A stretch of DNA of 24,675 nt from a virus. The stretch is taken from the IMG/VR virus record IMGVR_UViG_3300010151_000153, positions 1 to 24,675 of that record. The stretch is one strand, 5' to 3'. The position numbers were made by a program, and so were the translations under genes. The notes beneath the pieces were generated by a model. That model worked only from the letters and a program-made list of their open reading frames with translations. It had not been told where the DNA came from and ran no database searches. Numbering within the stretch: position 1 is the stretch's first letter; every line of letters starts with the position of its first letter. Below are positions 1 through 21,583 of this stretch, piece after piece.

Positions 1-3000
1 CAGTAAAACAACATGTTCCTAATGGTAAACAATTATTATTATAATAATCACAATCGATTCCACTTTCATCTAATATAGTATTACAATTAACAGAACATAA
101 ATCAGATGTTGCATATAGTAAATCATCACCCTTCCATCTATTTCTGTTATGAATTAAACAATCGTTTCCATTACAATAAGGAATTTTACAACTTGATAAT
201 ATATTTGAACAGTAATATTGACTACTTTCATAATTACAAGTATCACATTCACAACAAGGACCCGAAGGTAATTCTTCTGAGCAAACATCGGCGGTTGGGA
301 GGTCAGTTGAACCCATATCACTTGTAGGATATCCAAATACCCTAGTACAACCAGGAGTAAAATATCCAATATATACCATACCTCTTCCACTATCACCCCA
401 TTCTGTTACATCACCAGGGTCTTCATCATTTGGTCCAACATCTTCTCCGTTAGTTGAAGACTCAACATATCTTAAAGCAAGTCTTATATTTTGATTCGAT
501 TCGACAATCTTAGATGTTAATGTTCCTGTACTTGATTCCCAAGCAAATGCATTATTTGCATCGTAATACCCACCAAGAGGTCTCGATGAAGTCCAATAAA
601 CACCATTAAGATTACTTCCACCATAATCAGCATACGAAGATGCAATTTCTGGATGTTGACACATTTGTTTCCATAAGAAACCAAATTCATCTTTAGACAT
701 AACATAAAGATTTATTCTATCATCTCTTACAGAATTTAACGGATGATTAAAACCACCATCTAAATCTATTGTGGTAAATATACCACCCTCTAACCCACCA
801 TATGCTGGGTCAAGTCCAGAACTGCAATTAGAGTCTCTGAGGCTTGCGACATTATACGGACCGTTTAAATCTTCACCACATTCACCCTCATTACATTCTT
901 GTAGAGGCCAACCATGTGTATTGAAATATCCATCCGAAGGACGAGTTATACCAATTCTGGATGGTGTGAAATCTGTGTTGTCATTTAATGCCCATCTATT
1001 TTCATCACAATCATTCAAATCAATATAAATATGCCAACCTATTTGTTCATTTAGTTTTGATGGACAACTGTCACCACACGGGTCTGTGTTTGGGCAGTCT
1101 GCCTCACAACAACTTTCTTTTGGATAATGTATACATGTCCCACAAGACGGTTGTAATTCGGCACAATCAGTATCGGTTAAATTTTCTACACATGCACAAT
1201 TATCACAACAGCATGCTCCTGTTTCGGGGTTTACTATTTCGCAAGGGTCAGTACTACATTCCGAACCAGCACCTTGGAAGTTTCCTCCCAACGCTACACA
1301 TGCTGCCGAATTGCTAACATCTACACAGGTGTTATCTGACATACAACAAGCACCCTGAAGAAAATCACAACAATCTATATCTGCATCATTGCACGTTGTT
1401 CCATTTCCTCTGTAGTCACCACCTGCTGATATACAACTATCTTCAGATTCTTCAAAGCATATTCCAAATCTACAACAAACACCAAGAGAAACACACTCAA
1501 CACAAGTATCAGAAGGAGGAGAACCCTCGCATTCTGTATTTGGGTCACAATCTCCTCCTCCTCCTGTCCATGTTCCACTTACTGCACTACAATCATCTTG
1601 TGTATAATATGGATGTGCTTGTCCCTCCGCACAACAACAACCCAGAAGTGGAGTTTCTACGCAAGCACTTCCACATTCAGCAATGCAAGAGGTATTTTCA
1701 CATATATTTTGCATGCAAGCACCGTTATGAAAACTATCCCCATCCCAATTATAACAAGAAAGTTCACAAAGTTCATTTGGCGGCTGACCGGATTCGCATG
1801 TCCATTTTTGAGTTTCTCTGCAATCACCAACACCGGCAGCAGTTAACTGATTACCAACATCGGTAATATTTTCCCCCCAAACACAAACTCTTGCGCCGCC
1901 TACACAACCACAACCATTCCAAAGTACTGGTAGTGCATCACAACAGTGAACAGGTTCTTCATCAATAGGAGAATGCCATACACCATCATGTTTTGTGCAA
2001 CCCTCATCAGATATTTCTTGACATTGTAATGGTTCACCGTAACAGCAAGCACTACTAGGACATATTGGTTCGCATCCACTATTAGCACATGTTACATTAA
2101 AACCTTTGAAGTCTCCATCTATATCAATACAATCTTGTTGAAATAATTCTTGACAATCATAACACACTTGACCATCTGATAGTGAGTCTGTACAACAAGC
2201 ACCCAAAAGTTGTATAGGGTCATCACACGGATAATCATTACATTGAACTGCGGAACAATCTACTCCAAAAAAGAAATATCCACCATATAAATCACAGTCT
2301 GTTGCGTTGCTTTGTATACAAGTATGCATAGTGCAACATGCGCCTTCTGTATCATCTGAACAAAAAGTATTTTCGCATTTTGTTTTCAGGTGAAATTCTC
2401 CACCAAGTTCAAGACAATCTCCTCTTGTTGTATAATCAGCACATCCATTATCTGCCTTGTCATAACAACATGCACCCATTTCATCCGAAAGACCTTCAAA
2501 AGTAATTCCATAATTTATACCAGGATTTAATGCTAACCATTTATGTGTTCCGTTTGATGTTGTATCTGTAATCGCCTGCTCTGTATAAACAAAATTAAAT
2601 ATATCAATACCATCACTAAACTCTACAGAATCTGGGTCTGGGAATATAGCAGTTATATAATCTTCACTATAACTATCAGCAGTGTCGAAGATATCAACAG
2701 GTCTTAAACCTTCATCCAATAAACCGTGTGATGCCGCATTATACAAAATTAATGTAAAGTTTTGTGATGTTGAAAATGTTTGTCCGTTATAACTAGTATA
2801 ATTATCATATGGAAGTTTAATGTAGCCGGTGTTTGCACCACAATAAATCTTCTGCATATTACCACCAGTCATATGAAGTTGAACATCTACCCTATCTGTT
2901 TGAGACCAACCAACAGGATAATCATAAGTTCCTGATTGGTTTCCGTGTCTCTTAACAAATTCTCTATGGTCTATAAGTTTTGTTGATAAAGATTCATGAT

Positions 3001-3739
3001 ACGCCGATGCACCATCAGAACCTTTCGGCCAACTACTCACACTCCAATATGTTCCACTCGCACCAGCAGCATGAGAAGATGTTCCAGATGTCATATAAAT
3101 TAATTCACCTGTTCTTCCCATATCAATCGCATCTTCAGCGTTTGCTTTGATTCCTCCAAGCATAATTGTACCGTTTGGTAAAACTTGAAGTTGAACATCA
3201 TTATATGATTCTATAACTTTGAAATATGCAGTTGCACCATCGAGAGAATATATTAAAGGAACACCATCACCAACCGAACGAATCATAATAGGTCCTGTTG
3301 TTCCTGTATTTCCTGTAGCACCCAATATTCTTGCTAGTACTCCGTTATCAACTCCTGGATGACTTCCAGGAATTTCAAAGGTTCTTCCTCTTTGTGTTCC
3401 ATCAGAAGATGTTGATTCTTCTCCCAAAAATAAAACCAAAGACTCTTGTGGGCTTCCACAGATACCTGCATAACGATAATATCTAAAATCTCCTGTAGCG
3501 ACACCAAATACAGGCGCACCTTTATCATCAAAATGTTGAAAAATTATTGGTGCGGTAGGTCCACAATAACCAAAACCCACACCAGTTGAACCTAGAGGTC
3601 CAATAATTCCTGTGATTCCTTTTGGTCCTGTTGCTCCTGTCGGTCCTGTTGGACCTGTTCCACCAATATCACCAACCCTTGGGTCAGAAGGATTTCCGGT
3701 AGGACCGAATACTAAAATGTGTGAACTATTGTTTATCAT
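1..3739 (-). CDS. Giant cysteine-rich mosaic tail/fibre protein with collagen-like N-terminus (partial, runs off left edge)
   Basis: I read this frame by hand from the ATG at 3739 (AAGG ribosome site upstream) without a stop to base 1, at least 1246 codons. Residues 26-53 are ten Gly-X-Y triplets (GPTG type). Residues about 60-420 are a non-cysteine structural region related to the protein encoded just upstream at 3757-4914. From about 421 to 885 comes a dense cysteine region with repeated GACC units ending in GG-x-F/Y-x-G-x-x-C. Residues about 900-1090 look like an Lcl_C/DUF1566-type domain (KDEFGFLWKQ, then YWTSS, AFAW and RLALRYV). Cysteine-rich sequence resumes from about 1132 to the edge. 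I count about 94 cysteines. By position, last in the fibre group, I infer a host-contacting adhesin or fibre component. The function is not established; the C-terminus is unseen. Confidence 0.85.
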   Translation of the reverse strand, partial: MINNSSHILVFGPTGNPSDPRVGDIGGTGPTGPTGATGPKGITGIIGPLGSTGVGFGYCGPTAPIIFQHFDDKGAPVFGVATGDFRYYRYAGICGSPQESLVLFLGEESTSSDGTQRGRTFEIPGSHPGVDNGVLARILGATGNTGTTGPIMIRSVGDGVPLIYSLDGATAYFKVIESYNDVQLQVLPNGTIMLGGIKANAEDAIDMGRTGELIYMTSGTSSHAAGASGTYWSVSSWPKGSDGASAYHESLSTKLIDHREFVKRHGNQSGTYDYPVGWSQTDRVDVQLHMTGGNMQKIYCGANTGYIKLPYDNYTSYNGQTFSTSQNFTLILYNAASHGLLDEGLRPVDIFDTADSYSEDYITAIFPDPDSVEFSDGIDIFNFVYTEQAITDTTSNGTHKWLALNPGINYGITFEGLSDEMGACCYDKADNGCADYTTRGDCLELGGEFHLKTKCENTFCSDDTEGACCTMHTCIQSNATDCDLYGGYFFFGVDCSAVQCNDYPCDDPIQLLGACCTDSLSDGQVCYDCQELFQQDCIDIDGDFKGFNVTCANSGCEPICPSSACCYGEPLQCQEISDEGCTKHDGVWHSPIDEEPVHCCDALPVLWNGCGCVGGARVCVWGENITDVGNQLTAAGVGDCRETQKWTCESGQPPNELCELSCYNWDGDSFHNGACMQNICENTSCIAECGSACVETPLLGCCCAEGQAHPYYTQDDCSAVSGTWTGGGGDCDPNTECEGSPPSDTCVECVSLGVCCRFGICFEESEDSCISAGGDYRGNGTTCNDADIDCCDFLQGACCMSDNTCVDVSNSAACVALGGNFQGAGSECSTDPCEIVNPETGACCCDNCACVENLTDTDCAELQPSCGTCIHYPKESCCEADCPNTDPCGDSCPSKLNEQIGWHIYIDLNDCDENRWALNDNTDFTPSRIGITRPSDGYFNTHGWPLQECNEGECGEDLNGPYNVASLRDSNCSSGLDPAYGGLEGGIFTTIDLDGGFNHPLNSVRDDRINLYVMSKDEFGFLWKQMCQHPEIASSYADYGGSNLNGVYWTSSRPLGGYYDANNAFAWESSTGTLTSKIVESNQNIRLALRYVESSTNGEDVGPNDEDPGDVTEWGDSGRGMVYIGYFTPGCTRVFGYPTSDMGSTDLPTADVCSEELPSGPCCECDTCNYESSQYYCSNILSSCKIPYCNGNDCLIHNRNRWKGDDLLYATSDLCSVNCNTILDESGIDCDYYNNNCLPLGTCCFT

Positions 3740-3756
3740 TAACCAACCTTATATTG

Positions 3757-4914: not shown

Positions 4915-4925
4915 TTATAAAAATC

Positions 4926-6416: not shown

Positions 6417-6430
6417 TTTTTATAAAACTC

Positions 6431-9400: not shown

Positions 9401-9727
9401 TCCATCACCGGGTGTTGCACCATATACATGAAGTTGATTTAACTTTTCGATAATTTCGGTGTTTGTTTTCACTCTCCATGATTCAAAAGTATCATTTAGT
9501 TCTACATCACCAATAACATAATCTTTACCATAAACACTTAAAGTATATCCACGAGCCCCACTATACTGGTCATAAGAATGGACACCATATTCACTGGGAT
9601 AAATACTTCCAGTACCACCAGGCAATGCCCATGAAGCATGCGTAGTACCACCTATACCTGCTAGTCGATGACCACCATAAGCATATGTGTATCCTGTACA
9701 ACCTCCGAAATATCCTCTTCCTGCCAT
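6431..9727 (-). CDS. Large tail fibre/baseplate appendage protein
   Basis: 1098 residues, the longest complete gene here, ATG at 9727 with AGGAT upstream. Residues 78-102 (NDTFESWRVKTNTEIIEKLN) match the attachment-type segment seen near the start of many T4-like marine fibre proteins. Residues about 360-500 and 526-637 are two copies of a beta domain (GFAFGNVIR, EVIGVIS, NVYFLS, NRPVLVS). Residues about 510-525 are a Gly/Ala/Ser linker. From about 690, NPDFGIWQRG...ADRWLRVS resembles the carbohydrate-binding-like jelly-roll module of phage fibres, and LRKCQRYYQHSY near 950 is a common fibre motif. It probably corresponds in role to the proteins encoded at the gp10-gp12 position of T4. The exact place in the virion is inferred. 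Confidence 0.85.
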   Translation of the reverse strand: MAGRGYFGGCTGYTYAYGGHRLAGIGGTTHASWALPGGTGSIYPSEYGVHSYDQYSGARGYTLSVYGKDYVIGDVELNDTFESWRVKTNTEIIEKLNQLHVYGATPGDGMMMALGTGGTLAVAFSGNVLRTHSTFCNNLSIGGQLRVAGNLIGVDAISGGVTVGHNFDENLIILNTNESPAVGCDYSGLIIGGSATGPNPASIDKPIDDGGDFYNSFVFDRPYLIHKEGKWRTKEALWLEGRLNHQEVFTGRTSEGSTGDDYPHGPYGYTGCSADIKNKHDWNSEQGGVKGGVVRMYFGPTLDGFNYLEVDGRGDRVGATGDPWTGTGGFNDQTAPNALVIGNTAGALVEFQSDGYVNIVKGANKQRIVKNNHGFAFGNVIRYSGTTQGYTYASAAGENELHGDGIRAAEVIGVISRVVNNDTFDITYMGEITGTVSEWNTALVENHTEGLVPGNVYFLSIYNSADRGKIQFQEPRVAGYINRPVLVSTGKTSGIILPYRGQYNSSTGCTGGGAGGAGGASGGELTSFVRSYDSSSQTFVEGNIVCVDPQQTSGLNLADSTVLEKSHVLGMITYVDATNNYFRVATSGTVTLSSGVLSEPGTHYLHENGNLRTSPGNALSVKVLDAISPTRVVLNIDAPVISGAESRRGGGGQFKSRSHRIGSSLNILGPTGGTGSTYDNALQVNKNELINPDFGIWQRGTGTTHAWGGTANAYFADRWLRVSQTGTGSINPTTGSVGGTSRSFDYKIARGSFNKKETLIPNHPDYYSIIRGGITFSGGTMNNEWCRVEQRIEDCTSFAGEVMTVSFYAKGANPNNYHATGDCHVAFIQNLTGTTGAVPGATSGGLYASSSGLGVTASEIITPISDFSLTTNWEPYNFSFFVPELSSAAGASASNHNISLGVSGDHFASLAFYTQDTNNHINFMKDLHLSQIKLERGNVPTAFNLVNPNEELRKCQRYYQHSYVYGIHPGSNTMSTRTHPDTSGINFVVPNSYLNVYEFPERMRKNPTCSLWSPTGIADEAFNRDASNDLRNVAGTKGYDGRGRSTRANSINVKYSSDTPNAIEIKILGGAVPLDTVTVHYEADADFNNAFPSPVIEN
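8161..8196. repeat. Short in-frame tandem repeat, about four 9-base units
   Basis: Plus-strand unit CACCACCTG: a first copy with one change (CACCACTTG), two exact copies, then a partial fourth. Read on the minus strand it encodes the Gly-Gly-Ala linker (residues about 510-525) between two beta domains of the 1098-residue fibre. The period is a multiple of three, so copy-number change would lengthen or shorten the linker without breaking the frame. Confidence 0.8.
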
Positions 9728-9738
9728 AAGTATTTATC

Positions 9739-10365
9739 CTATACTGGTGTTCCTGTGTCGTAATAATAAGGCGTACCGTTTTGAAAGTACGCTATGTTTG
9801 CTGCGTTTGCTGGTAAAGAACCTTCACCGACAATATATGAACCTGCTGATATAATATTTATCTGATATCTTGAAGCACCTGGTGCTGAATAATTAGAATA
9901 TCCTTGTGCATTATCTTTTAATTCTCCGTCAACTTCAACCTTTGCAAATCCGCCTGTTGGTGGAAAAGGATTTCCATCTGGATTTACTTGTACTTCTTCC
10001 CATTGAATATATATGTTGGTATCAAAGTCTGGAGAAAGATTTATATTTGGAATAATTATTTCTGATTTGTTGTAAATAAAATAACCCAACTCTTTATTTG
10101 TTGGTTCTATATAAACATACCCCAAACCAAGGCTACCTGTCCAAATAACACCTGCTGGAGAAAACCCAAGTGTAGCATCTATAATACTTCCACTTTTCAA
10201 AAATCTTTTTGCGAGGGCGGTGATTTGAGATTGTAGGATGGTTTGTACTTGGGTTAATTCTCTTGCTTGTATTGCAAATCCTGGACGAAATCCCATTTGA
10301 ACATAATTATTTGCTATGTCCCAATCGTCTAATCCCGAATCTTGTACTCTGTAAAAAACTGTCAT
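9739..10365 (-). CDS. DUF4815-like tail/baseplate protein, short form
   Basis: 208 residues, ATG at 10365 with AGGAG 6 bases upstream. Residues about 26-60 read FRPGFAIQARELTQVQTILQ followed by SQITALAKRFLKSGSII, the N-terminal signature I associate with the DUF4815-type tail proteins of T4-like cyanophages. Family members as I recall them are considerably longer; this one stops soon after a single further beta-rich segment (YVYIEPTNKELGYF, then YQINIISAGSYIVGEG). The fibre gene begins 12 bases later in a new frame with its own ribosome site, so this looks like a shortened or split adaptor that connects wedges to fibres. In T4 the equivalent place is held by gp9/gp10. Family assignment is fairly sure, role inferred. 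Confidence 0.75.
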   Translation of the reverse strand: MTVFYRVQDSGLDDWDIANNYVQMGFRPGFAIQARELTQVQTILQSQITALAKRFLKSGSIIDATLGFSPAGVIWTGSLGLGYVYIEPTNKELGYFIYNKSEIIIPNINLSPDFDTNIYIQWEEVQVNPDGNPFPPTGGFAKVEVDGELKDNAQGYSNYSAPGASRYQINIISAGSYIVGEGSLPANAANIAYFQNGTPYYYDTGTPV

Positions 10366-10373
10366 TTTATCTC

Positions 10374-11963
10374 CTATCCTATCATAAATGCTAAGGTTAA
10401 AGTATGTCCTATTTGTGCAGCAGCATCTGCGTTAAAACTAATATCATCAAATACAAAAGTATGTAGGACTTCTGTATAGTTTCCTAGAGAATCTTTTCCC
10501 ATAGAAAGAGGTGTTTTTTCAACATCTAATATTTGTGTGTTGCTTGGAGTGTTTCCTGTTGAATAAGATGTTGTATATTTACCAGATACAAATGTATCGG
10601 GAGAAACTTCTCCAAATAATTTATCAGTTGTTGATACTGTTTTAGACCCTTGACCTGTTATATTTATATTTCTTCCACCATCAGCGTTTGTATTATTAGA
10701 AGTAATCGTTCCGACACTTCTATTAGACGAAGACACACTATTAAAATAATCTCCTGACTTCATTGCAGCAGATACAGAATTGTCTTGTACCTTTATTTTT
10801 GTTGCAGCAGAAAAATAAGTTGCTTGTATTGATTGTTTTCCAGGAGAAATAGTGTCTGATATCGGTTTATCTTTATATAATGGATTTTTCACAATAGATG
10901 CAGTATTCCACTCTGTACCATCTGTATATTTTTCAAACATTTTTGGGTCTAACACCATAAGAAACATAGCCCTATTAGCATTCAGCAAACCAATTGCATC
11001 ACCAAAACCATCTTCTGGAGAAGCAATAGCATAAACAAAAGGACCTCGAATATCAGAATCTATTGTACTTGCTGCACCACCAACTATATGTGTTGAGTCA
11101 TATCCTGTATTATTCTGAGAAGCGGTAGACGGTTCTGTACCCATAGAAAATACGTTATTCATAGGATAACCTTTTCCCCTTTCTACAACATCTACTCTTT
11201 CTAATTTATATCCTCTTTTGTTAGAGTCTACTTCTTCTGATGGGCCAATATAATCAAAAACAGCATCTAGTTGTGCGGGATTGTCTGTGTCTGACCACAA
11301 AACAAACAAAGAACTTGTTGCAGTATCCCACCTTATATCTTTCATATCATCTTTCTTTATTTCGACACGAATTAGTTCACCACCATTCGATAACCCACGC
11401 TTTTCGACTTCATATTTAAGATTATATGGGTTGGTGGTAGAAAGTTCATCTATTTCTATTTGAGTTTTTCTATCTTGAACAGGCATCCAATCAACACCAC
11501 CAAGATTTCTTTTATAATTATTCATAATTCCCGATATAGAATAAAGATATTGCCAAAGATAGTCATCATCAGTTCTAAACGGTTCTGGTCTGGTTCCTGT
11601 TGGTGCAACACCAGATATAGAACCATTGTTGTTGTCTAAACACAAATAAACTTTATTATTATGTTCACAATAATATGCTTGACTTTCTTGGTCTTTATTT
11701 GGGTCCCACGAAATGAACATAACCCTTTTCCATTTTATATGTTTACACACACGCATAGGTGCAGAATACTCTGGAAGAACCAAACCAACATCACCATAAA
11801 AACCATTAATAGATGCCGCATAAGAACCAGAACTAGGTGTTATACCGTGTTCATTCTGTTGTTTTCTCCCTAAAATTATTGCATAGGTAGTATCCGAAAA
11901 CATATCTGTAAATGCTTTTGCAAATGCCCAGTTTGCTTCTCCTGCCAATCTACTTGTTGCCAT
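10374..11963 (-). CDS. gp8: Baseplate wedge protein, gp8-like
   Basis: 529 residues from the ATG at 11963, chosen because AAAGGA lies 8 bases upstream and the next gene upstream ends at 11978; a longer start at 11990 would overlap that gene and has no such site. T4 gp8 (about 334 residues) forms a dimer in the wedge. Shared features by eye: an early LGR (residues 31-33), a region VLPEYSAPMRVCKHIKW near 62-78, and residues about 104-145 with VYLCLDNNN, then PTGTRPEPFRTDDDYLWQYL, matching the gp8 run of VYRCLD and GDGYVWEYLFEI. The C-terminal 200 residues have Ser/Thr/Asn-rich repeats not in T4 gp8. It lies between the gp7-position and fibre genes, as in T4. High confidence for wedge, good for gp8. 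Confidence 0.8.
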   Translation of the reverse strand: MATSRLAGEANWAFAKAFTDMFSDTTYAIILGRKQQNEHGITPSSGSYAASINGFYGDVGLVLPEYSAPMRVCKHIKWKRVMFISWDPNKDQESQAYYCEHNNKVYLCLDNNNGSISGVAPTGTRPEPFRTDDDYLWQYLYSISGIMNNYKRNLGGVDWMPVQDRKTQIEIDELSTTNPYNLKYEVEKRGLSNGGELIRVEIKKDDMKDIRWDTATSSLFVLWSDTDNPAQLDAVFDYIGPSEEVDSNKRGYKLERVDVVERGKGYPMNNVFSMGTEPSTASQNNTGYDSTHIVGGAASTIDSDIRGPFVYAIASPEDGFGDAIGLLNANRAMFLMVLDPKMFEKYTDGTEWNTASIVKNPLYKDKPISDTISPGKQSIQATYFSAATKIKVQDNSVSAAMKSGDYFNSVSSSNRSVGTITSNNTNADGGRNINITGQGSKTVSTTDKLFGEVSPDTFVSGKYTTSYSTGNTPSNTQILDVEKTPLSMGKDSLGNYTEVLHTFVFDDISFNADAAAQIGHTLTLAFMIG

Positions 11964-11977
11964 TTTTATTTTCCTTT

Positions 11978-13375
11978 TTAGAATCCACAACCATCTGTAC
12001 CTTCTTCTAGGTCATTTGGTGAACCTGTTACTATATCTATGGGAGATATGTATATGAATTGTCCTAATTGTATATCTTTAAATTTCATTCCGGTCGGAAC
12101 CTCATTAGTCCATGAATTTGGATGATGAAATACTTGAAATAAGTTTAATCCAAATTCGGTAGCAGCAGTTCCTCCTGTATGACCAGTTCGCCCAAGGGGT
12201 GTTAGATTCGGGTCATGTGCGGCAGTTATAAGTGCTGCTTCGTTTTTATACCATAATCCCCCGCTATCTTGTGTATGTTGAATTGTATATGTTGAACCTG
12301 CTGCACGAACATATGGATTCCAACCACAAGGATATACATCATCAGTACCACTACCAGAAATTCTAAGATTCATCTCTGTTTCAAATCTATATGGTGCATA
12401 AAATCCTGTTATTGGAGTTTCTACTTCAAATATATCTCCTGTAGTACCAGGTTGGTCAAATTCATCCCATATTGTGTGGTTTCCCGCAGCATATAATCCC
12501 GATGGGTGTATTAGATTTTTCACATACGGCCAATATGTTTCCCACGAAAGATTAGAATCTATTAAATATGAATAATCTTGCCAAACTTTACTATCTTGTA
12601 TTTTACTCAATCCACTTATAGTTCCAAACTCATCATCATAATAAACACCACAAGGACTTCCCGGTGAACAGTTTTGTGGGCAAGGTGGTAGACCATATGT
12701 ATTACCTTCCGTAGCCCAACAATTATTGCATGGGCTATCGGCAGCAGTAGAACCGTAATAATAACATGGTGTGCCTGTTGTTCCTGCGGATGCTCCTCTG
12801 AACGGTGCATCGGAACATCTTATAAGTCTAACTTTTGGATATGAAATATTTACCCAAGAATCATAAAACACCCTGAAGAAATAATCATATACTTCTTCGA
12901 TGCTTTTCATCTGATACATTTCCTTCACAAATCTAAGAAAATTTCTAACATCAACCTTACAAGAAGAAGGATTAACAAAGTCTACCAAAACCTCTACCTC
13001 TGCTTTTTTTTGTGATGGGGCAAAGTCGAATGGACCAATACCATATCTCTTTACTGTTAAATCCGGAAACCCTTCTGCAAAAACATCTTTGAAAAGTTTG
13101 ATAAAAACATCAGGTGTAACATCAACATCTTTGATGGATTCGATAATAGCCATATCATTTTCGCAACCCAACCACTGATAAAACAACTCTATAAATTTTA
13201 CAAATCTGGGATGATTATTTATAACCCAAGAAGGCATTCTATCTTTAACAAAGAAGTTAAAATTAGAAATACAACCGTCATCATAATCCACAGAATTAAT
13301 ATAATTCCAAACCTCTTCATATATTGAACCAGTTTCTCCTCCGGCTTTTCCTTCTAATATTCCTGATATAGTCAT
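11978..13375 (-). CDS. Baseplate wedge/tail protein at the gp7 position, with cysteine-rich insert
   Basis: 465 residues, ATG at 13375 with AGGAAAA upstream. The N-terminal part has a conserved marine T4-like pattern: PSWVINNHPRFVKFIELFYQ (48-67), then FIKLFKDVFAEGFPDL (91-106) and FLRFVKEMYQMKSIEEVYDY (146-165). After the insert, KIQDSKVWQDYSYLID and VKNLIHPSGLYAAG also follow the family. Residues 187-242 are an insert-like segment with seven cysteines and PPCPQNCSPGSPCG, unlike the rest. Gene order (after gp6, before gp8) is that of T4 gp7, but T4 gp7 is about twice as long, so I do not assign the symbol. The C-terminus again has GTTG/GTGG-rich loops. Confidence 0.75.
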   Translation of the reverse strand: MTISGILEGKAGGETGSIYEEVWNYINSVDYDDGCISNFNFFVKDRMPSWVINNHPRFVKFIELFYQWLGCENDMAIIESIKDVDVTPDVFIKLFKDVFAEGFPDLTVKRYGIGPFDFAPSQKKAEVEVLVDFVNPSSCKVDVRNFLRFVKEMYQMKSIEEVYDYFFRVFYDSWVNISYPKVRLIRCSDAPFRGASAGTTGTPCYYYGSTAADSPCNNCWATEGNTYGLPPCPQNCSPGSPCGVYYDDEFGTISGLSKIQDSKVWQDYSYLIDSNLSWETYWPYVKNLIHPSGLYAAGNHTIWDEFDQPGTTGDIFEVETPITGFYAPYRFETEMNLRISGSGTDDVYPCGWNPYVRAAGSTYTIQHTQDSGGLWYKNEAALITAAHDPNLTPLGRTGHTGGTAATEFGLNLFQVFHHPNSWTNEVPTGMKFKDIQLGQFIYISPIDIVTGSPNDLEEGTDGCGF

Positions 13376-13392
13376 TATTGTTTTCCTGTTAC

Positions 13393-15114
13393 CTAATCAA
13401 CAAGTTGAATTATGTCATTGACAAGAGTAAGTATAATTCCCATTTTAGGATTTACGTTGTTTGATTTTGGTCGTACCCGAACATAAAAATTACTAATAAA
13501 TTCAATACCATCAATCTGAACATTTCCTGTATTTGCATTTACCGAACCAACATTCAAAGATATCAAAGTACCGTCAGAAGAATAGTGTCGAATATTACCA
13601 GCACCATCATCTCTTAGATATCCTAAGATTTGATTGCCGTTTATATTTGCAGTGAAATTGTTACTACGGAGAACAGACCCTACCAAACCACCAGACTCGA
13701 CCAACGGATTACTAAAACTAATAGAAACTGCATTTATAGGATTACTTTCTGATGCACCAAACTGTTTTCTTAAATATACAACAAGAGTTTCACCAATCAA
13801 GCCTGTGTCTAATTTTAATAGTTGGTTTGCAAAATCAGTAAAATCAAAATTAGACTCGAATGTGTCTAACCTATAATTATTAACAAAAGAAATTACTTTA
13901 TCCGACAATTCTGATAACGAACTAGAAGTTTCATCTAAATTATAAAATACAGAACCATTTAAAATTACTTCAACCACCGATGGGTCTACAAATTCAGGAA
14001 GAATAGAAACCACCGATTTGTCTCTGAATATTTGAACAATATCATCTTTTTGTTCTTGTGTTAATAATGTTCCATCCTCTGCAACCGCAGAAACAAAAAC
14101 TCTTCCGTATTGTGGTGGGTCGTTATCTTCTCCGCCCCAAGTTTTTGATACAATTCCTCTTCTTTCTTGACGAAGTAATGCTTTATAGTCTTTGGCAGTA
14201 ACTGCTCTTCCTTGTGTTTGAAAAAACAACGGTGCATGTGTTCTTATGGAATCTACTGATTCTTTGTTTATACCGTTTCGGGAAGGAGATATTGTTGAAA
14301 CCACACTAACACCATCAACGGAAGTAGTAAAGGATGTTACACCATTTCCATCGGTTCCGGCAGTTATCAAATAATCAAACGATACTTGCGAATCATGAAC
14401 AGGAGATTTTCCTATAACACCATCTCCAAAATAAATTTCATAACCACCATCAAAAGATGTAGTCAAAAAGAATACTTTCTCTCCTGCTGTTACACCTGTT
14501 ACATTTCCATCTACTTCATCAACTATTCTCCATCTGTTGAAACCACTACCCTCATTCACGTTAACCTTTAATGTTGTAGTATCAATATCTCCATGTGGTA
14601 TTCTAAATCTTTGATGTGATATACCACTATCAACAGTGTCTTGCTCTGGTGGAGTTTCTATTCTATTTCCTTGAATCAGTTCTATTGTTGTATTTTGTGA
14701 GTCGGGTAAGTTATAAGATTTAATAGGAGTCCAATTCAATCCACCACCAAAAAAGGCATCGCCGTAAACGACGACATTAGAACCTGAAGATGAAACTTCT
14801 ATTTCTGTCCTTGCACCTCTTTTTGAAACCGGAACATAAGAAAGAGGTTTTACCAAAGAACCTATGGAATCTCTTTTTGTTGCTGTATCTAAAAAAGATT
14901 CATTTGCTACCATGTTTGCATAATAAGAATAAAATGTACTATTATATGATAACACATCTATTAGTGTAGATAATGCTGAACCTTCAAAATCAAAATCTGT
15001 AAATACATCAGAACCCTCAAAGAAATCTCTAATAGAATCTCTAATGTCAACAAATCCTAATTTTCCTAAATTTATAACTGGGTTGTCTGTGGTTGAACCT
15101 TTAATGTATACCAT
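13393..15114 (-). CDS. gp6: Baseplate wedge protein gp6 (baseplate J family)
   Basis: 573 residues. The ATG at 15114 directly abuts the gp25 stop; GGAGAG in the end of gp25 can serve as ribosome site, so the two are probably translationally coupled. T4 gp6 (660 residues) dimers form the inner ring that ties wedges together and triggers sheath contraction. Diagnostic runs: FTDFDFEGSALSTLIDVLSY (38-57), TKRDSIGSLVKPLSYVP (79-95), and 290-340 with RTHAPLFFQTQGRAVTAKDY, then TWGGEDNDPPQYGRVFVS. The EIYFGDGVIGKSP motif (226-238) is also typical of baseplate J proteins. Length and motifs are normal for the family. Confidence 0.93.
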   Translation of the reverse strand: MVYIKGSTTDNPVINLGKLGFVDIRDSIRDFFEGSDVFTDFDFEGSALSTLIDVLSYNSTFYSYYANMVANESFLDTATKRDSIGSLVKPLSYVPVSKRGARTEIEVSSSGSNVVVYGDAFFGGGLNWTPIKSYNLPDSQNTTIELIQGNRIETPPEQDTVDSGISHQRFRIPHGDIDTTTLKVNVNEGSGFNRWRIVDEVDGNVTGVTAGEKVFFLTTSFDGGYEIYFGDGVIGKSPVHDSQVSFDYLITAGTDGNGVTSFTTSVDGVSVVSTISPSRNGINKESVDSIRTHAPLFFQTQGRAVTAKDYKALLRQERRGIVSKTWGGEDNDPPQYGRVFVSAVAEDGTLLTQEQKDDIVQIFRDKSVVSILPEFVDPSVVEVILNGSVFYNLDETSSSLSELSDKVISFVNNYRLDTFESNFDFTDFANQLLKLDTGLIGETLVVYLRKQFGASESNPINAVSISFSNPLVESGGLVGSVLRSNNFTANINGNQILGYLRDDGAGNIRHYSSDGTLISLNVGSVNANTGNVQIDGIEFISNFYVRVRPKSNNVNPKMGIILTLVNDIIQLVD

Positions 15115-15603
15115 TTATCTTAATCTCTCCATTTGTATTTTTACAGAAACATCTTCCGAAGATACATTCCCACCAACAGGATTTATGGTGAATATTACTT
15201 CTATATTTAATTCTAAATAATCTTGGTCTTCAGAAACCAAAACTTCCTTTACTGTTACTCTTGGTTCCCATTTTTCAAGTTGCTTCTTAATAGATTCTTT
15301 TGTACTCCATCTAGCCCAAGGGTCTTCAAAACTTTCAAAAAGCAACTTTCGTATGTTACATCCCATTAATGGTTTCCAAGGTCTTTCATAATGATTGGTC
15401 ATAACAATATTTTTAACAGACTGTTTGATAGCATCTACATCAAACTTTCGTACAACATCTCCATTAAGTCCTTGCAATTGATATAAAGGACTTGAATCGA
15501 AAATAAAATCCAAGTCTGAATATATGTAATTTCTATCCCCTAATCCTCTATAGTTAGAAGTAGGGCTAGAATCTCCTGAATATCCCGAACCGTATCGTCC
15601 CAT
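15115..15603 (-). CDS. gp25: Baseplate wedge protein gp25 (GPW/gp25 family)
   Basis: 162 residues, ATG at 15603 with AAAGGGAA upstream. T4 gp25 is 132 residues and seeds sheath assembly at the wedge together with gp6 and gp53. Family landmarks: DVDAIKQSVKNIVMTNHYER (55-74), PWKPLMGCNIRKLLFE (75-90), and the invariant EPR (113-115) in KWEPRVTVKEVLV. The first 30 residues are a Gly/Ser/Tyr-rich extension. It is immediately followed by gp6, its structural partner, which supports the call. Confidence 0.93.
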   Translation of the reverse strand: MGRYGSGYSGDSSPTSNYRGLGDRNYIYSDLDFIFDSSPLYQLQGLNGDVVRKFDVDAIKQSVKNIVMTNHYERPWKPLMGCNIRKLLFESFEDPWARWSTKESIKKQLEKWEPRVTVKEVLVSEDQDYLELNIEVIFTINPVGGNVSSEDVSVKIQMERLR

Positions 15604-15639: not shown

Positions 15640-16887
15640 TTACTGTTCCTTTACTTGACTATCTCTCATAAGTGTTATAATAGATATAGCCACCATTGAT
15701 GAACCAAAACTGTGTTTCATGGCAGAAACCAACCACTTCCCATTCAATTGATGAATGTCTTCTGTCTCTATATCATCGGTGGAAACAGAGGGTGGAAATT
15801 TCAACTCAACCACATCTCCAATTCTCAAATCAGAATTAGATGCAACTGTTATTTGTATCTGTTGTGATTTTAATAATTCTAACTGTGCATTTCGTAGAAG
15901 TGGTGTTTTCAACGGAGTATTCCAATACCGAGCATCAATACTTCTTATATATTCCAAATATTCTGGATATCTTTTTCCGTGATGAGGAAAATTACACTTT
16001 TCGATATAGTGTGGTTTGATTATTTTATTTTCTATTCCGTCTATACATCCACATGGGTCTGCTGTATGTCCACCGAAAGAACCAAACCAAGGTGATTGTG
16101 GATTTTCTATTTTTATAACACCCTCATCGTCTATCTCTATATCGGGACATCTATATGCTCCAATAACAGATTGATATGGTGGTGTCGCAGCAGAATATTG
16201 TGTGTATGGTGTTGGGACATCGCCCGTTGTTCCGCCAAAAGGAACTCTATCATTAATATTACTAAAATCTTTATCCAACCATTCTGTTGGTAACCACCCG
16301 TACCACCAATAATTATTTAAATCACATCCAGACCATTCTGCTCCCAATACCTCTTCTATCAACTCACATTCTAACGGAATTGCATTTATTTTTTCTTTGA
16401 CATGTGAACATGTTACTTCTTCTCCTGTTGGTCCAACAACTCCCTCTACCTCTTCCTCAACTAATTTTTTATAAATCTGCCATTGTTTATATTTGTCTTC
16501 GGCTTCTTTTGCTTCTTTAATCTTTTCTATAATTGGACCACGGATGTCTTCTATAATTTTTTTCATAATTTCAACATCAAGTTCTGTGTGGCTGTACCAA
16601 TTATTCAGTGCATTTCCTACACCAATATTACTAGAATAACCAAAACCATATCCATTAAATTTTTTAGTCAAATCCGTGACCGCAGGAACAGCATTTCCTG
16701 GTCCAATCATAGGATAATATGGATATGCTTCTACATGCTTCCACTTATCATAATCCTCAAAATAATCATAAACAATTTCCTCTTGAATGAAAAATTGTTC
16801 AGGACTAACAAATCCACGATAATAATCAAAAGATTTCATATCATAATGACATTCGGGTCGTATACAATTATATTTTGATTCGGTCAT
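15640..16887 (-). CDS. Baseplate protein with hub (gp27-type) C-terminal domain
   Basis: 415 residues, ATG at 16887, with no clear ribosome site; the upstream gene ends 11 bases before it, suggesting coupling. Residues about 326-410 (LRNAQLELLKSQQIQITVAS, SDLRIGDVVELKFP, LNGKWLVSAMKHSFG, ITLMRDS) align by eye with the C-terminal barrel of T4 gp27 and related hub proteins ([40 protein letters not shown]). The N-terminal part is unrecognised: a Tyr/Phe-rich start with CIRPEC, a charged helical stretch (105-150) that may be coiled coil, one GPTGEE, and a Trp-rich part near 185-205. Cysteines are moderately frequent. With the gp27-like gene two positions upstream, this may be the other half of a divided hub. 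No lysozyme motif is visible. Confidence 0.6.
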   Translation of the reverse strand: MTESKYNCIRPECHYDMKSFDYYRGFVSPEQFFIQEEIVYDYFEDYDKWKHVEAYPYYPMIGPGNAVPAVTDLTKKFNGYGFGYSSNIGVGNALNNWYSHTELDVEIMKKIIEDIRGPIIEKIKEAKEAEDKYKQWQIYKKLVEEEVEGVVGPTGEEVTCSHVKEKINAIPLECELIEEVLGAEWSGCDLNNYWWYGWLPTEWLDKDFSNINDRVPFGGTTGDVPTPYTQYSAATPPYQSVIGAYRCPDIEIDDEGVIKIENPQSPWFGSFGGHTADPCGCIDGIENKIIKPHYIEKCNFPHHGKRYPEYLEYIRSIDARYWNTPLKTPLLRNAQLELLKSQQIQITVASNSDLRIGDVVELKFPPSVSTDDIETEDIHQLNGKWLVSAMKHSFGSSMVAISIITLMRDSQVKEQ

Positions 16888-16897
16888 ATATTATGTA

Positions 16898-18223
16898 TCA
16901 TACACACTCGAAATTATCACAAGTTGTATCATCTCCACCATAATATCCACCATCTACCAAACACTGTGAATAATCATAATCATTATAACACGAACCACTT
17001 ATACAACATACACCTGTACTACAATTACATTGAACCTCCTCAAAACATGTAATATCTTCACACTTACTATCAAATCCATACCACTCGCCATCACAAATAT
17101 CAGGAAACTGTGTCTCTGCACAATGACCATCTGTAAAACAACACGCACCTGTTGGTGGACACTCTTCGCACTGGGCACAACAAGTCCCAGAACCACTGCA
17201 TCCAAAAGACCCATTTGTACAAACACAACATTGACCATCTGGACAAGGCTCATAGTCTTCCGGATTGTTACAGTTCATGGGATGACAACAAGTGTCGCCC
17301 CCCCAAGGACAATTTACACACTGACCCTCTATACAACAAAGAGGTTCACAATCAGAATTTTCCTCACATTCATCACCACCACCACCGCCGCTATCATCAC
17401 ATTCTTCACATACTCCATCATTACAACACATATCATCTTCACAATCAGTATGTAAACAACAGTCGCCGCAACATTCCCAACAAGGACAACTACAATCCCA
17501 AATTCCGCCTAAAAAATCACAATGACAGTTATTTATATTCCAACAAGAATACCAACCAAAATGACACGCACACTCTTGGTCGGGTGTTTCACACTCAATT
17601 TCATCAGGCCAAACACCAGGATAAAAGTCTCCACCCACCTCACCACAACTTTCATCATTTGTTCTAGAAGCACGTTTATAACAAAGTTGACTAAGACAGC
17701 ATGTTGGATAATAACAACAAGTCCCCATTACGGGAGGTTCTGGGTAATCGCACAATCCGTCTACACATTGTTGACCACCACCTTGAAATGAACCCTCTGC
17801 ACCACAGCATTCATGACAAGGCAATATAACACAACCACCATCATTAGGTAAACAACACGCACCATATCCAGTACATACACAATCAAGTCCTTCTGGTGGG
17901 TCTCCCAATCCTCTAAAACCCCCCACTATTGTTTCACATGCAGTATCATCTCCCTGATATATTCCGTTTTCGTTAGCACATTCTTCTTGTAAATAAGTGT
18001 TTATACATGTTACATCATCCTCGTTTTCACAAAAACAACACGCACCCCTAACATGAAAACAATTAACAAAAGGGTCTGCACATAAACTATCTGTGCCTTG
18101 ATATGTACCACCAATACCACCATCTTCAACGCTTCTTTCACATAACTTTTGAGTTACATTATCTCTACATGTTTCATTGGGTAAACAACACGCTCCCCTA
18201 TCACAACAACACGGTCTCTTCAT
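16898..18223 (-). CDS. Cysteine-rich GACC-repeat protein of unknown function
   Basis: 441 residues with about 81 cysteines (18%), ATG at 18223 with AGGGGAT upstream. It starts MKRPCCCDRGACCLPNETC with no hydrophobic signal peptide. Repeat units follow GACC-(L/F)-x-C-x-C-x-GG-x-(Y/F)-x-G-x-(T/S)-x-C, for example GACCLPN, GTYQGTDSLC; GACCFTDGHC, GFDSKC; GVCCISGSCYN, GYYGGDDTTC. The middle (about 230-350) is denser, with CxCxC and CC pairs and a poly-Gly stretch (about 288-294). The protein is acidic. The gene is in line with, and evenly spaced from, the hub genes on both sides, so it is probably co-transcribed with them and a virion part. Disulfide-stapled or metal-binding folding is possible. 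I do not recognise a named domain. Confidence 0.9.
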   Translation of the reverse strand: MKRPCCCDRGACCLPNETCRDNVTQKLCERSVEDGGIGGTYQGTDSLCADPFVNCFHVRGACCFCENEDDVTCINTYLQEECANENGIYQGDDTACETIVGGFRGLGDPPEGLDCVCTGYGACCLPNDGGCVILPCHECCGAEGSFQGGGQQCVDGLCDYPEPPVMGTCCYYPTCCLSQLCYKRASRTNDESCGEVGGDFYPGVWPDEIECETPDQECACHFGWYSCWNINNCHCDFLGGIWDCSCPCWECCGDCCLHTDCEDDMCCNDGVCEECDDSGGGGGDECEENSDCEPLCCIEGQCVNCPWGGDTCCHPMNCNNPEDYEPCPDGQCCVCTNGSFGCSGSGTCCAQCEECPPTGACCFTDGHCAETQFPDICDGEWYGFDSKCEDITCFEEVQCNCSTGVCCISGSCYNDYDYSQCLVDGGYYGGDDTTCDNFECV

Positions 18224-18238
18224 AATATATCCCCTAAA

Positions 18239-19756
18239 TTATGATTGTAATTTACAATCATCACCAGAATCTTCTTCATCACATTCACCATCTTGCATAT
18301 TAGAAGCACTAAAGAAATAATGCGGTCTGTTGTTCACATCCTTGTATATTTTCATTTCAACAATTGGAAACTTTTTTCCAACTTCCATATTATCAAAAAC
18401 TTCTTCGATGTCTTCTTCTGTATTATTATAATTTACATTTGAAGGTTTTGAACCTCGTATAGGTTGAAGTTTATAACAACCATCTTCCCACAATACAGTA
18501 TCAATTCTAAATCCTGGTGCTTCCCATCCAATCCTCGAAGAATAATCCCAAACATTATCATTACCTGTTTCTATTGTGTTATGTGCTGGTTCAAAAAATA
18601 ACTGTCCTGTATTTACAATACCATTTTCTGTAAACTGAACACTAGAACGAATAGGATTTTCACTCAACGGTTTAATTTTAAATATTGGAGTATGGTTTAC
18701 ATAATCATATTCCAAATATACCTCTGAAAATGCATAATGCCATCTATGAGAATCTTGTCCACTACCTGCTCTTCTAAAACCATGAATAGCAGCAGGAAAC
18801 TTATCAAGAAATCTACAATTTACCTTGTAATAAAATGTATCGATACTGCCTATCATCCAATTAGGGTATTTTTCACTATCAATTCTTGGTTTATAGTATT
18901 TCACAACAGAAGCAAATGCACCTCTTTGTTGTAATTGTAATTGGTTACCTTGTTCTAATATAGTCAAGTGTTGTACTTGTGAATCTAATTCTTTACACTT
19001 TCCACCAGAAGTATTGTCTGCCGATACAATTTCGCAGTAGGTTTTTTTGGGTTCATTTTCCATAAAACTTTCAATCGACTTAAATTTCCACCCATAAATA
19101 TCTTGATAAAATACAAAATTGGCAGCATTTATATTTTCTTTTGATATAGAATTTTCTGCAAGTTGATTTATAAGAGTAAACACATCCTGTGGTCCATCTT
19201 TTCTAAGTTTAGGATAACTAGAATATTTTGGACGATACATAACATCATTTGCTGTTTCTTCTATCTCTGTATCATAATCTCCACCTTGTCCTGTAAGCCA
19301 TGTGAAAGGTTCATTTCCATCAATTATATTTTTTACAAATTTATGGATTTTTCCTGTGAATTCTTCTTTTAAATGATTGTCGTCTACCTTTCCTGCTACA
19401 TGTGATATTGTACTAAAAGATAATTCCCACCATTTCTTTCCCAAACCATCTGGTCCTACTCCGTGTATTTCTTTTGAATGAAAAACATATAAAGGCGGTA
19501 CTAACAATATTCCCGATGCCTCAATTTCTAAATCTAAAAGAATTACCTCTTCTCCTACCAAAGGCAATTTAGCACCAATATCATATTTGTCAGACAATAA
19601 TAATTTACCTGCCAAAGACGGTTCAAACATATCCTCGTATATTTCTACCTTTTCCAAAGCACCTTCTTCTATAACATCAATGATTCCGCCACCACGCAAC
19701 CCTTCAATGGTAAGGTTTTTTATTTTTATTTGTCCTTGAAAATTGGGGTCTGCCAT
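18239..19756 (-). CDS. gp27: Baseplate central hub protein, gp27-like
   Basis: 505 residues, ATG at 19756 with TAGGAT upstream. T4 gp27 (391 residues) is a trimeric torus that joins the six-fold baseplate to the spike and tube. Residues about 31-110 have the hub beginning: KVEIYEDMFEPSLAGKLLLS, AKLPLVGEEVILLDLEI, VFHSKEIHGV, followed by WWELSFSTISHVAG. Residues about 185-235 (DVFTLINQLAENSISKEN, FVFYQDIYGWKFKSIES) match the helical insertion and barrel of gp27. The C-terminal 180 residues do not show the usual final hub barrel and end in an acidic tail DGECDEEDSGDDCKLQS; the missing barrel may be the one found in the 415-residue protein two genes downstream. Hub role is likely; the exact domain split is inferred. 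Confidence 0.8.
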   Translation of the reverse strand: MADPNFQGQIKIKNLTIEGLRGGGIIDVIEEGALEKVEIYEDMFEPSLAGKLLLSDKYDIGAKLPLVGEEVILLDLEIEASGILLVPPLYVFHSKEIHGVGPDGLGKKWWELSFSTISHVAGKVDDNHLKEEFTGKIHKFVKNIIDGNEPFTWLTGQGGDYDTEIEETANDVMYRPKYSSYPKLRKDGPQDVFTLINQLAENSISKENINAANFVFYQDIYGWKFKSIESFMENEPKKTYCEIVSADNTSGGKCKELDSQVQHLTILEQGNQLQLQQRGAFASVVKYYKPRIDSEKYPNWMIGSIDTFYYKVNCRFLDKFPAAIHGFRRAGSGQDSHRWHYAFSEVYLEYDYVNHTPIFKIKPLSENPIRSSVQFTENGIVNTGQLFFEPAHNTIETGNDNVWDYSSRIGWEAPGFRIDTVLWEDGCYKLQPIRGSKPSNVNYNNTEEDIEEVFDNMEVGKKFPIVEMKIYKDVNNRPHYFFSASNMQDGECDEEDSGDDCKLQS

Positions 19757-19769
19757 TATAAAATCCTAT

Positions 19770-20834
19770 TCAATAAATTATATCTGTGATAATTGGTGTA
19801 TTACCAGAGGGAAGACCAAAAAAAGAACTCTTGTTTGTTTTCCTAGTAACAGAATTAAATGTTGCATAAGTTAGTTTTCTGTTTCCTAATAATTCTACCA
19901 ACAAGTCATATGCATCTTCTTTGAAAGACGGGTCTAATAACTTGATTCTGCTTTTAGAATAATCATCAAATGTTTCTTTGTTTACAACTGCTGTAAATGC
20001 TTTTGCATAAGTAGAACCACTACTTCCGCTTCCCCCCAAAACCGCATTGATAAGAGTACCCGAAATAGAGTTTGTGATATCTCCCTTGTTATATAAAGGT
20101 CCACTGGGTTTTATAATTCTTTCTTCTATACTATAACTTGGGTGGACTATTCTGCCACTTCTATTATCAACAAAATGACTTATAGAATCTCCACTGTCGG
20201 TTAAAGATAATAAAATTTTACCCCAGTATGCAAGTCGAGCAGGTTCATTTTTATTTTTGACAAGAACACCAATGTCATCTCCCACATAAAACCCACCACC
20301 TTGAATTTCAGATAATGTTGCTTCCCTAAAAGAACTTCTCCATTTGTTTATTTTTGCTGTTGCAAAATTTGAATCAGAGGGTTGAAGGGGTTGGGGTTGA
20401 ACCCATGTTCTGTAACCTGTGCTTATTTCTCTTGTTCCTGCACTTTCGTCCCTTATTTTTACAATAATATCGCCCTGTTTAAAATCTAAATTTATGTCTC
20501 CACCTTCTCTTTGAATATAAACCATAGGAACGGGTTCGGCATCTTCACCGGGAATTGATTTATAATCTAAACCTAATCTTGGTAATTCATTGAATGGATT
20601 TATAATATTATTATATAATAATACCAACCACCACCAATCAGAAGAACCATAGTGCTTATAAGCAATAATATCGGGAGTATCTCCGTGCTTCATTGTGTAT
20701 GTTTCGTATGCTCTGTTTGTGAAGATATCGTCAAATAAAAACTTAACACGAATAAAAATATCTAAAACATCTTGGTCTTCTACACCAATGCTTCGGAAAT
20801 TATAATCTACTGTTGGAAATTTGTCAAAATACAT
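19770..20834 (-). CDS. gp53: Baseplate wedge protein gp53, with long C-terminal extension
   Basis: 354 residues, ATG at 20834 with AAGGA upstream. T4 gp53 is 196 residues and contains a LysM-like fold that clamps neighbouring wedges. The hallmark segment is at residues 45-85: YTMKHGDTPDIIAYKHYG, SSDWWWLVLLYNNIINPFNE. The section to about 130 (IPGEDAEPVPMVYIQ) fits the family. The remaining 200 or so residues, including a Gly/Ser linker (SGSSGSTYAKAF) and a compact end (LLDPSFKEDAYDLLVELLGN), are additional compared with T4. It is next to the tube cap and not far from gp4, the same neighbourhood as T4 (4-53). Confidence 0.88.
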   Translation of the reverse strand: MYFDKFPTVDYNFRSIGVEDQDVLDIFIRVKFLFDDIFTNRAYETYTMKHGDTPDIIAYKHYGSSDWWWLVLLYNNIINPFNELPRLGLDYKSIPGEDAEPVPMVYIQREGGDINLDFKQGDIIVKIRDESAGTREISTGYRTWVQPQPLQPSDSNFATAKINKWRSSFREATLSEIQGGGFYVGDDIGVLVKNKNEPARLAYWGKILLSLTDSGDSISHFVDNRSGRIVHPSYSIEERIIKPSGPLYNKGDITNSISGTLINAVLGGSGSSGSTYAKAFTAVVNKETFDDYSKSRIKLLDPSFKEDAYDLLVELLGNRKLTYATFNSVTRKTNKSSFFGLPSGNTPIITDIIY

Positions 20835-20845
20835 ATTATGTCCTT

Positions 20846-21583
20846 TTAGGGGTTTTTGATTGCATCGCTACCTTGGTGTTGCAATGTTACTTCCGTAAAA
20901 GTAATATCTAAATTGAAGAAAGGTGGGGCACCAGAATTACTAGAAAATGTTGCTGCTATACCTGCTCCTGTATAGTTCATGTTGATATTGGTTATTACAG
21001 ATTTACCATATTTTCCGAAACTTTTTAGTTCACCACCAGAAGAACCAACATTTTGTATTTCAAATTCATGTGGCATTTTATAAAGTAAACCACCGTGTCC
21101 TAGTTTCGGATATGACCATTTTCTCAAACTATCATATATCTCCTTTAATCCATCTGCATCACCCTGACTATATGGAGTAAGTTCCCAGTGAAAAGAAAAA
21201 CTCCTAAATGCAGGTGCAGTGTACATTTGCTCTGACCTCGGATTTACAACCATTCCGCTCAACCTTCCGGCTTCTGCTCCTGCTCCTTTAGAAACCAAAT
21301 CCAAAACAATTTGCGATGCGCCTTTGGCAGAATTTAATATATCACTCCACTCGAACCCTGTTGTACCTATACCCCTAGACAACGCATGAGATGCTTTAAA
21401 ATCATGTGCAGCATAATTATGAGAATTATTCTCTACAATAGCATTTGGTGCAACTATTTGGACTTCCCCCACTGGTTTGCCCCAATTGGTGGTGACATCT
21501 TGGGCTAAATTATTAGCAGACTCATGTGCCTTGATAGACATCCAGTTGGGTATTTCATCCTGTACTGTTGTAGGGAATCTCAT
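20846..21583 (-). CDS. gp48: Baseplate tail-tube cap/initiator, gp48/gp54-like
   Basis: 245 residues, ATG at 21583 with AAGGAT 8 bases upstream; first gene of the leftward block. In T4, gp48 and gp54 sit on the hub and start tail tube growth; both have a tube-like fold. Residues about 113-160 (NPRSEQMYTAPAFRSFSFHW, ELTPYSQGDADGLKEIYDSL) and 195-232 (SVITNINMNYTGAGIA, FFNLDITFTEVTLQHQ) are the conserved core of these proteins in T4-like marine phages. It is shorter than T4 gp48 (364) and gp54 (320), and only one such gene occurs here, so I cannot tell which of the two it represents. Confidence 0.8.
   Translation of the reverse strand: MRFPTTVQDEIPNWMSIKAHESANNLAQDVTTNWGKPVGEVQIVAPNAIVENNSHNYAAHDFKASHALSRGIGTTGFEWSDILNSAKGASQIVLDLVSKGAGAEAGRLSGMVVNPRSEQMYTAPAFRSFSFHWELTPYSQGDADGLKEIYDSLRKWSYPKLGHGGLLYKMPHEFEIQNVGSSGGELKSFGKYGKSVITNINMNYTGAGIAATFSSNSGAPPFFNLDITFTEVTLQHQGSDAIKNP

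Follow-up and report, generated by a model that had tools for sequence, protein, structure and literature searches.

How does a protein in which almost every fifth residue is a cysteine come to lie in the baseplate operon of a T4-like virus? The question is posed by P0001, which is encoded on the minus strand at positions 16898..18223 of the window (by which we mean the whole 24,675-nucleotide stretch of DNA analyzed here). The source virus is T4-like and is known only from metagenomes. An earlier note on this DNA had given P0001 441 residues and about 81 cysteines, or about 18%, and our recount of the open reading frame bears this out: 441 residues and 81 cysteines (18.4%), with 81 acidic residues (D+E) against 12 basic ones (K+R) and a calculated pI of 4.05. 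Because the number of cysteines is odd, at least one of them must be free or engaged in an intermolecular bond. The note had also claimed that there is no signal peptide, and a crude hydrophobicity test agrees, finding no hydrophobic N-terminus in P0001 or its orthologues. The start codon (ATG) is preceded by AGGGG, the gaps to the flanking genes are 15 nt and 10 nt, and TGT accounts for 75 of the 81 cysteine codons, as expected for an AT-rich genome. A recent acquisition of the gene was considered and rejected, since its GC3 (0.204) resembles that of its neighbors (0.18-0.22). P0001 has no match in Pfam, PHROG or NCBIfam, hub profiles included.

The operon runs, on the minus strand, from the tail tube cap (20846..21583; PHROG 230 and Pfam T4_tail_cap) through the baseplate wedge protein gp53 (19770..20834), P0003 (18239..19756), P0001, P0002 (15640..16887), and the wedge proteins gp25 (15115..15603) and gp6 (13393..15114) to further wedge proteins and then the tail fibers; the three named wedge proteins were assigned by profile searches. 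The immediate neighbors of P0001 both match PHROG 350, the T4 gp27/gpD-type hub family. P0003 (505 aa) covers positions 11-332 of the 436 in this profile (E 3.3e-21). P0002 (415 aa) consists of an N-terminal YNCxRPxC motif, a conserved linker and a C-terminal barrel (aa 332-413, 15649..15894), and the barrel covers positions 349-430 (E 2.6e-13). Since these stretches are consecutive, and are found whole in a single protein (gp116) of the Methylophilales phage Melnitz that spans positions 7-430, P0003 and P0002 are two parts of one hub. Thus the P0001 gene does lie among hub genes, as the earlier note had proposed, but what flanks it is a single hub protein in two portions, N-terminal and C-terminal, rather than two separate hub-like genes. 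The N-terminal part ends in a DGEC...C tail (Cys492 and Cys501, 18242..18292) that is conserved in split forms.

Structure prediction is compatible with this assignment. The model of P0002 residues 332-415 resembles the hub barrels of pyocin R2 (Z 5.7), P1, Pam3, T4 gp27 (Z 5.2) and VgrG over 60-66 residues, as well as viral gpD-type models; these Z values are middling, the pLDDT of the domain is ∼70, and the AF2 model of P0002 is otherwise poor. Foldseek alone gave no significant PDB match for P0001 or P0002. A separate feature of P0002 is a set of cysteines (174, 188, 279, 281 and 298) conserved in nearly all hub C-terminal parts and found as CNCPC in L015, L019, L023, L025 and L112. By analogy with the hub of the gene transfer agent RcGTA, they may bind a metal or an Fe-S cluster within the hub itself.

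To place this arrangement in context, we compared the window with its viral relatives (L-numbered), independent contigs retrieved from IMG/VR by scans with P0001, P0002 and their alignments. Nine split-hub lineages were found (the window, L003, L004, L009/L010, L112, L025, L014, L005 and L011), and in all nine a cysteine-rich or cysteine-containing ORF lies directly before the hub C-terminal part. The gene is present at the locus in every close relative found; the earlier note had proposed that its absence there, together with absence from virions, would point to a passenger gene. The hub is not a single polypeptide in the window, L003, L009, L010, L014, L025 or L112, and an assembly artifact was rejected as the source of the split, which recurs in many independent contigs. 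The cysteine-rich protein itself varies widely: it has 396-553 residues and 66-83 cysteines in the window group (L003, L004 and L009/L010), 1420 residues and 170 cysteines in L112, and 2015 residues and 233 cysteines in L025, where it has no match in Pfam or NCBIfam. The ORFs in the hub slot of L014, L005 and L011 have 66, 81 and 37 cysteines, respectively.

In other relatives the pieces are joined. A single 975-aa ORF in L019-L021 combines the hub N-terminal part, a P0002-type linker and 39 cysteines, and in L014 the hub C-terminal polypeptide itself carries cysteine-rich inserts (38 cysteines). The description of the protein as free-standing applies to the gene only; cysteine-rich segments are fused into the hub polypeptides of L019 and L014. 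The whole hub is encoded by one ORF, of about 1570-1730 residues, in L015-L018 and L023, with an insert of ∼1000 residues and few cysteines between its N- and C-terminal parts. A gp6 tree, which represents one gene and has no fixed root, groups the split forms L025 and L112 with the partly fused L019 and places the window group separately; it follows that splitting or fusing occurred repeatedly, or that a split form was re-fused. The larger slot proteins (L005:1-2964, L011:1-2844 and L014:4309-6840) share a FGPxxxxxGxINPxPxxIxF motif; in one of them the string DNSGSMSW resembles, by eye, part of a von Willebrand A domain, and those of L005 and L011 have no Pfam match.

Is the high cysteine content of P0001 itself under constraint? 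The orthologues in L003, L004 and L009/L010, which occupy the same place, retain 58-72% of the cysteine columns, compared with 29-34% for other residues. Because these positional orthologues keep cysteine preferentially, the high content is not due to chance. The protein as a whole diverges faster than its surroundings, with 36-41% identity among orthologues against 53-66% for the flanking genes; no argument was based on dN/dS, given the saturation of synonymous sites. Faster divergence with preferential retention of cysteine fits a constant scaffold with varying surface loops, as far as can be judged from sequence. The comparison also reveals an N-terminal CCC motif (aa 5-7, 18203..18211), which every orthologue having a start retains, distant ones included, in the form CCC or CCCC.

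The full GACC unit has six cysteines and reads approximately G-A-C-C-x(4-6)-C-x(5-9)-C-x(3)-G-G-x-Y/F-Q-G-x(4)-C-x(3-5)-C; the consensus offered earlier, GACC-x-C-x-C-GG-x-Y/F-x-G-x-C, was roughly correct but too short. A profile built exclusively from 209 bacterial units (consensus GACCLPDGSCEVLTEADCAAAGGVYQGDGTTCAPNPC) detects five units in P0001, upholding the claim that GACC units are repeated: unit 1 (aa 10-50, 18074..18196; i-E 2.1e-6 at Z=1000), unit 2 (aa 60-98, 17930..18046; i-E 2.8e-7), unit 3 (aa 121-158, 17750..17863; i-E 1.6e-4), unit 4 (aa 359-393, 17045..17149; i-E 7.5e-5) and unit 5 (aa 404-440, 16904..17014). A central stretch of ∼190 residues (aa 165-355) is also rich in cysteine but does not consist of GACC units. 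Against this profile P0001 scores 199 bits, while shuffled sequences with the cysteines held fixed average 39 bits and reach at most 65 (none of 1000 attains the score). Because such shuffles stay so far below 199 bits, the match reflects more than mere cysteine content.

The same unit is found far outside the viruses. Three viral units served as the query for a scan of 84,980 genomes of bacteria and archaea, the diversity of the A3 alignment being too great for a seed, and we obtained 254 related stretches. The best 80 of these 254 belong mainly to Phycisphaerales and other Planctomycetota and to Eisenbacteria, with a few from Bacteroidota or other groups, and most of these carriers have a hydrophobic, signal-like N-terminus by a crude test (not SignalP). 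Many bacterial carriers end in a dockerin-like D-x-NGDG tail. One protein from Phycisphaerales (L048:3816-9938), 2041 aa long and bearing 39 GxCC motifs, has no Pfam match. No covering model was observed among the Pfam, PHROG and NCBIfam libraries searched, and the family seems to be without a Pfam entry. We found no account of the repeat in phages in the literature.

The repeat also occurs elsewhere in the tail. The window contains a collagen-like tail fiber ORF (3739..2, minus strand; at least 1246 aa, 97 cysteines) that runs off the window edge and carries a block of GACC units (aa 422-833, 1241..2476, minus strand; best i-E 4.1e-10). The profile finds units in fiber-like proteins of L117, L120 and L121 as well, and in the slot ORF of L005, but not in those of L014 or L011. 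Because fibers carry it too, the GACC unit serves these viruses as a building block of surface-type tail proteins and is not specific to the hub. Two further observations concern other contigs: a tail-fiber-like cluster in L123 (L005 contig 1-15000) holds five further cysteine-rich ORFs (6-11% Cys), and L119:6420-15800 encodes a 3127-aa protein that starts MSTQRNCCCD and has GACC units in two places (aa 528-602 and aa 3067-3100), with no hub genes recognized beside it. The profile search proposed in the earlier note thus yields matches in bacterial secreted proteins and viral tail proteins. By tblastn against 50,697 isolate phage records, none was obtained with P0001, the GACC-bearing fiber of the window, a two-unit GACC consensus or the large ORF of L005, in a search whose BLAST filtering may mask weak cysteine-rich matches.

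What kind of structure does the unit adopt? The AF2 model of P0001 as a whole is poor (pLDDT 45), and the units are predicted to fold as beta-beta-alpha-beta, reaching a pLDDT of ∼70 only in the last two. The best PDB matches of the unit profile are iRhom2 and iRhom1, with the six cysteines in register (E 0.22-0.78, not significant alone), and the AF2 model of the last unit (residues 403-441) superposes on iRhom2 568-607 (PDB 8snl) with Z 4.0 and 1.4 Å over 38 residues at 32% identity. Scored against unit profiles, the iRhom segments reach 24-34 bits, values attained by 0-4 of 2000 cysteine-fixed shuffles, so that the likeness of iRhom2 568-607 to the unit goes beyond cysteine spacing. The sequence and structure searches are scored differently and converge on one segment, but they share sequences, and the E-values do not prove homology; the evidence is suggestive of a relation between the GACC unit and this segment of the iRhom homology domain. 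That domain is stapled by eight disulfides (PMC11248996, PMC12184519), and its fold has been described as unprecedented, with no structural relatives reported (PMC11248996). It contains a single such unit inside a larger membrane-protein domain, whereas P0001 contains an array. In the P0001 sequence no long hydrophobic segments are seen, and the position of the iRhom domain between TM1 and TM2 of a rhomboid-like protein is not matched.

The spacing of the cysteines bears on their chemistry. P0001 contains 9 CxC and 9 CxxC pairs compared with ∼14.6 expected from shuffles; CxxxC is also below expectation, and a spacing of 6 is enriched. The L003 orthologue has 4 CxxC compared with 11 expected, and P0001 has only 7 histidines. 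Metal sites of the ferredoxin or zinc-ribbon type were rejected for P0001, as its cysteine spacing is unlike that of common Zn or Fe-S sites. Of the two kinds of stabilization suggested previously, disulfide or metal, the disulfide type is therefore supported, and the metal type is not, given that CxxC and CxC are not enriched and histidines are few. Judged from sequence, the GACC modules probably contain three disulfides each, and we favor a disulfide-bonded hub decoration over a metal-binding protein.

These results lead us to propose, as somewhat better than an even bet, that P0001 is a tail-tip virion protein and supplies the third piece of a hub encoded as N-terminal part, cysteine-rich piece and C-terminal part. 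Of the roles suggested earlier (spike, needle or hub decoration), decoration of the hub or tip is the natural reading, because the neighbors form one hub and because cysteine-rich segments are fused to the hub chains of L019 and L014. P0001 would be made reduced in the cytoplasm and would then assemble with the hub halves, and its units would close their disulfides after the particle leaves the cell. Once oxidized, the protein would give the end of the hub that touches the host a compact, rigid and acidic surface resistant to proteases, whose most likely purpose is surface contact or adhesion and hardening of the tip. The argument for host contact draws only on the type of module and the faster divergence. 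The sulfhydryl oxidase (Evr1/Alr) profile PF04777 gave no match in 15 records, which are fragmentary and in which a control also found no match.

Several other roles can be weighed against the same evidence. P0001 could be a central spike or needle, a disulfide-hardened replacement for T4 gp5 that pierces the envelope: in cyanophages gp5 comes directly behind the gp27-type hub gene, and P0001 has the operon slot that gp5 takes up in Synechococcus phage ACG-2014f, and profiles for Gp5_OB and PAAR found no match in 10 and 15 fragmentary records of the group. This absence is weak because the records are fragments. Moreover, the cysteine-rich protein can be as short as 396 aa or as long as 2015 aa, the predictions show neither a trimeric beta-helix nor a coiled stalk, and relatives hold cysteine-rich segments within hub chains; we retain the spike as a lesser rival and consider it unlikely. 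Decidedly unlikely, in our estimate, is a linker or assembly factor, which would restore the covalent continuity of the split hub through inter-chain disulfides to the cysteine tails of its halves. In its favor, every split form in which the end of the N-terminal part is covered has DG[EL]C and a second cysteine close to that end, the fused hubs L015, L019 and L023 lack DG[EL]C there, the cysteine-rich protein starts with CCC, and the hub C-terminal part often begins with YNCxRPxC. However, the DG[EL]C/CCC correlation comes from few, related genomes, and some hub C-terminal parts begin with one cysteine instead of two.

The earlier note's metal-loaded penetration element, carrying Zn or Fe-S, can draw on the existence of Fe-S cluster hubs (the RcGTA hub, with four cysteines; PMC7296036) and on the conserved CNCPC or CxC cysteines of the hub C-terminal part, but within P0001 CxxC and CxC fall below shuffle expectation and histidine is scarce, and the GACC unit is shared with proteins that bacteria secrete and is similar to a domain held together by disulfides. 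Such an element is thus improbable. Least credible, and to our minds barely tenable, is the idea of a passenger (moron) gene with no part in the virion, encoding for instance a host-modifying or thiol-sink protein: P0001 does diverge faster than its neighbors, but its slot is fixed in nine lineages, the operon spacing is tight, GC3 is neighbor-like, cysteine-rich segments are fused to hub chains, and the unit recurs in a tail fiber.

The preferred interpretation, decoration of the hub tip, can be carried further. In a speculative form, which we think has a rather low probability of being correct, the locus would encode a new kind of hub: two gp27-type chains re-joined through a highly cross-linked GACC chain whose disulfides form only after lysis and thereby complete the hub, the module being a horizontally shared extracellular fold (of planctomycete secreted proteins, phage hubs and fibers) with a eukaryotic copy in the iRhom homology domain. 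Quite apart from this extension, the analysis defines a repeat family common to these viruses and planctomycete secreted proteins, and describes a lineage of T4-like viruses with tail hubs and fibers that contain a disulfide-type repeat, even though virion proteins arise in a reducing cytoplasm. For the iRhom homology domain, the unit offers a structural lead that can be tested, and if the proposed role is confirmed, when and how phage tails oxidize becomes directly testable.

It is instructive to compare this locus with known systems. The PHROG 350 hubs of Melnitz and of cyanophages are one chain of ∼450-480 aa, whereas the hub in the window is encoded by two genes that are separated by a cysteine-rich gene, and its C-terminal part contains a long extra linker. 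The secreted GACC proteins of Planctomycetota and Eisenbacteria have the six-cysteine unit in common with P0001 by profile, but P0001 has neither the signal-like N-terminus of most bacterial carriers nor the dockerin-like tail of many. Extensive virion disulfides are known from the contractile tail and baseplate of Agrobacterium phage Milano (PMC10811340); there, scattered cysteines (2.1% of the structural proteins) connect ordinary subunits, in contrast to the repeat protein with 18% cysteine described here. Extra domains on hub barrels, or a hub spread over two proteins, occur as they do here in the hub of Anabaena phage A-1(L), with its inserted domains (PMC10966104), and in the RcGTA hub and megatron (PMC7296036), but the inserts in those systems are enzymes or Fe-S or oligosaccharide-binding domains rather than cysteine repeats. 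The P0001 locus is best described as a hub plus added domains, which are drawn from a repeat family without a model in the libraries searched.
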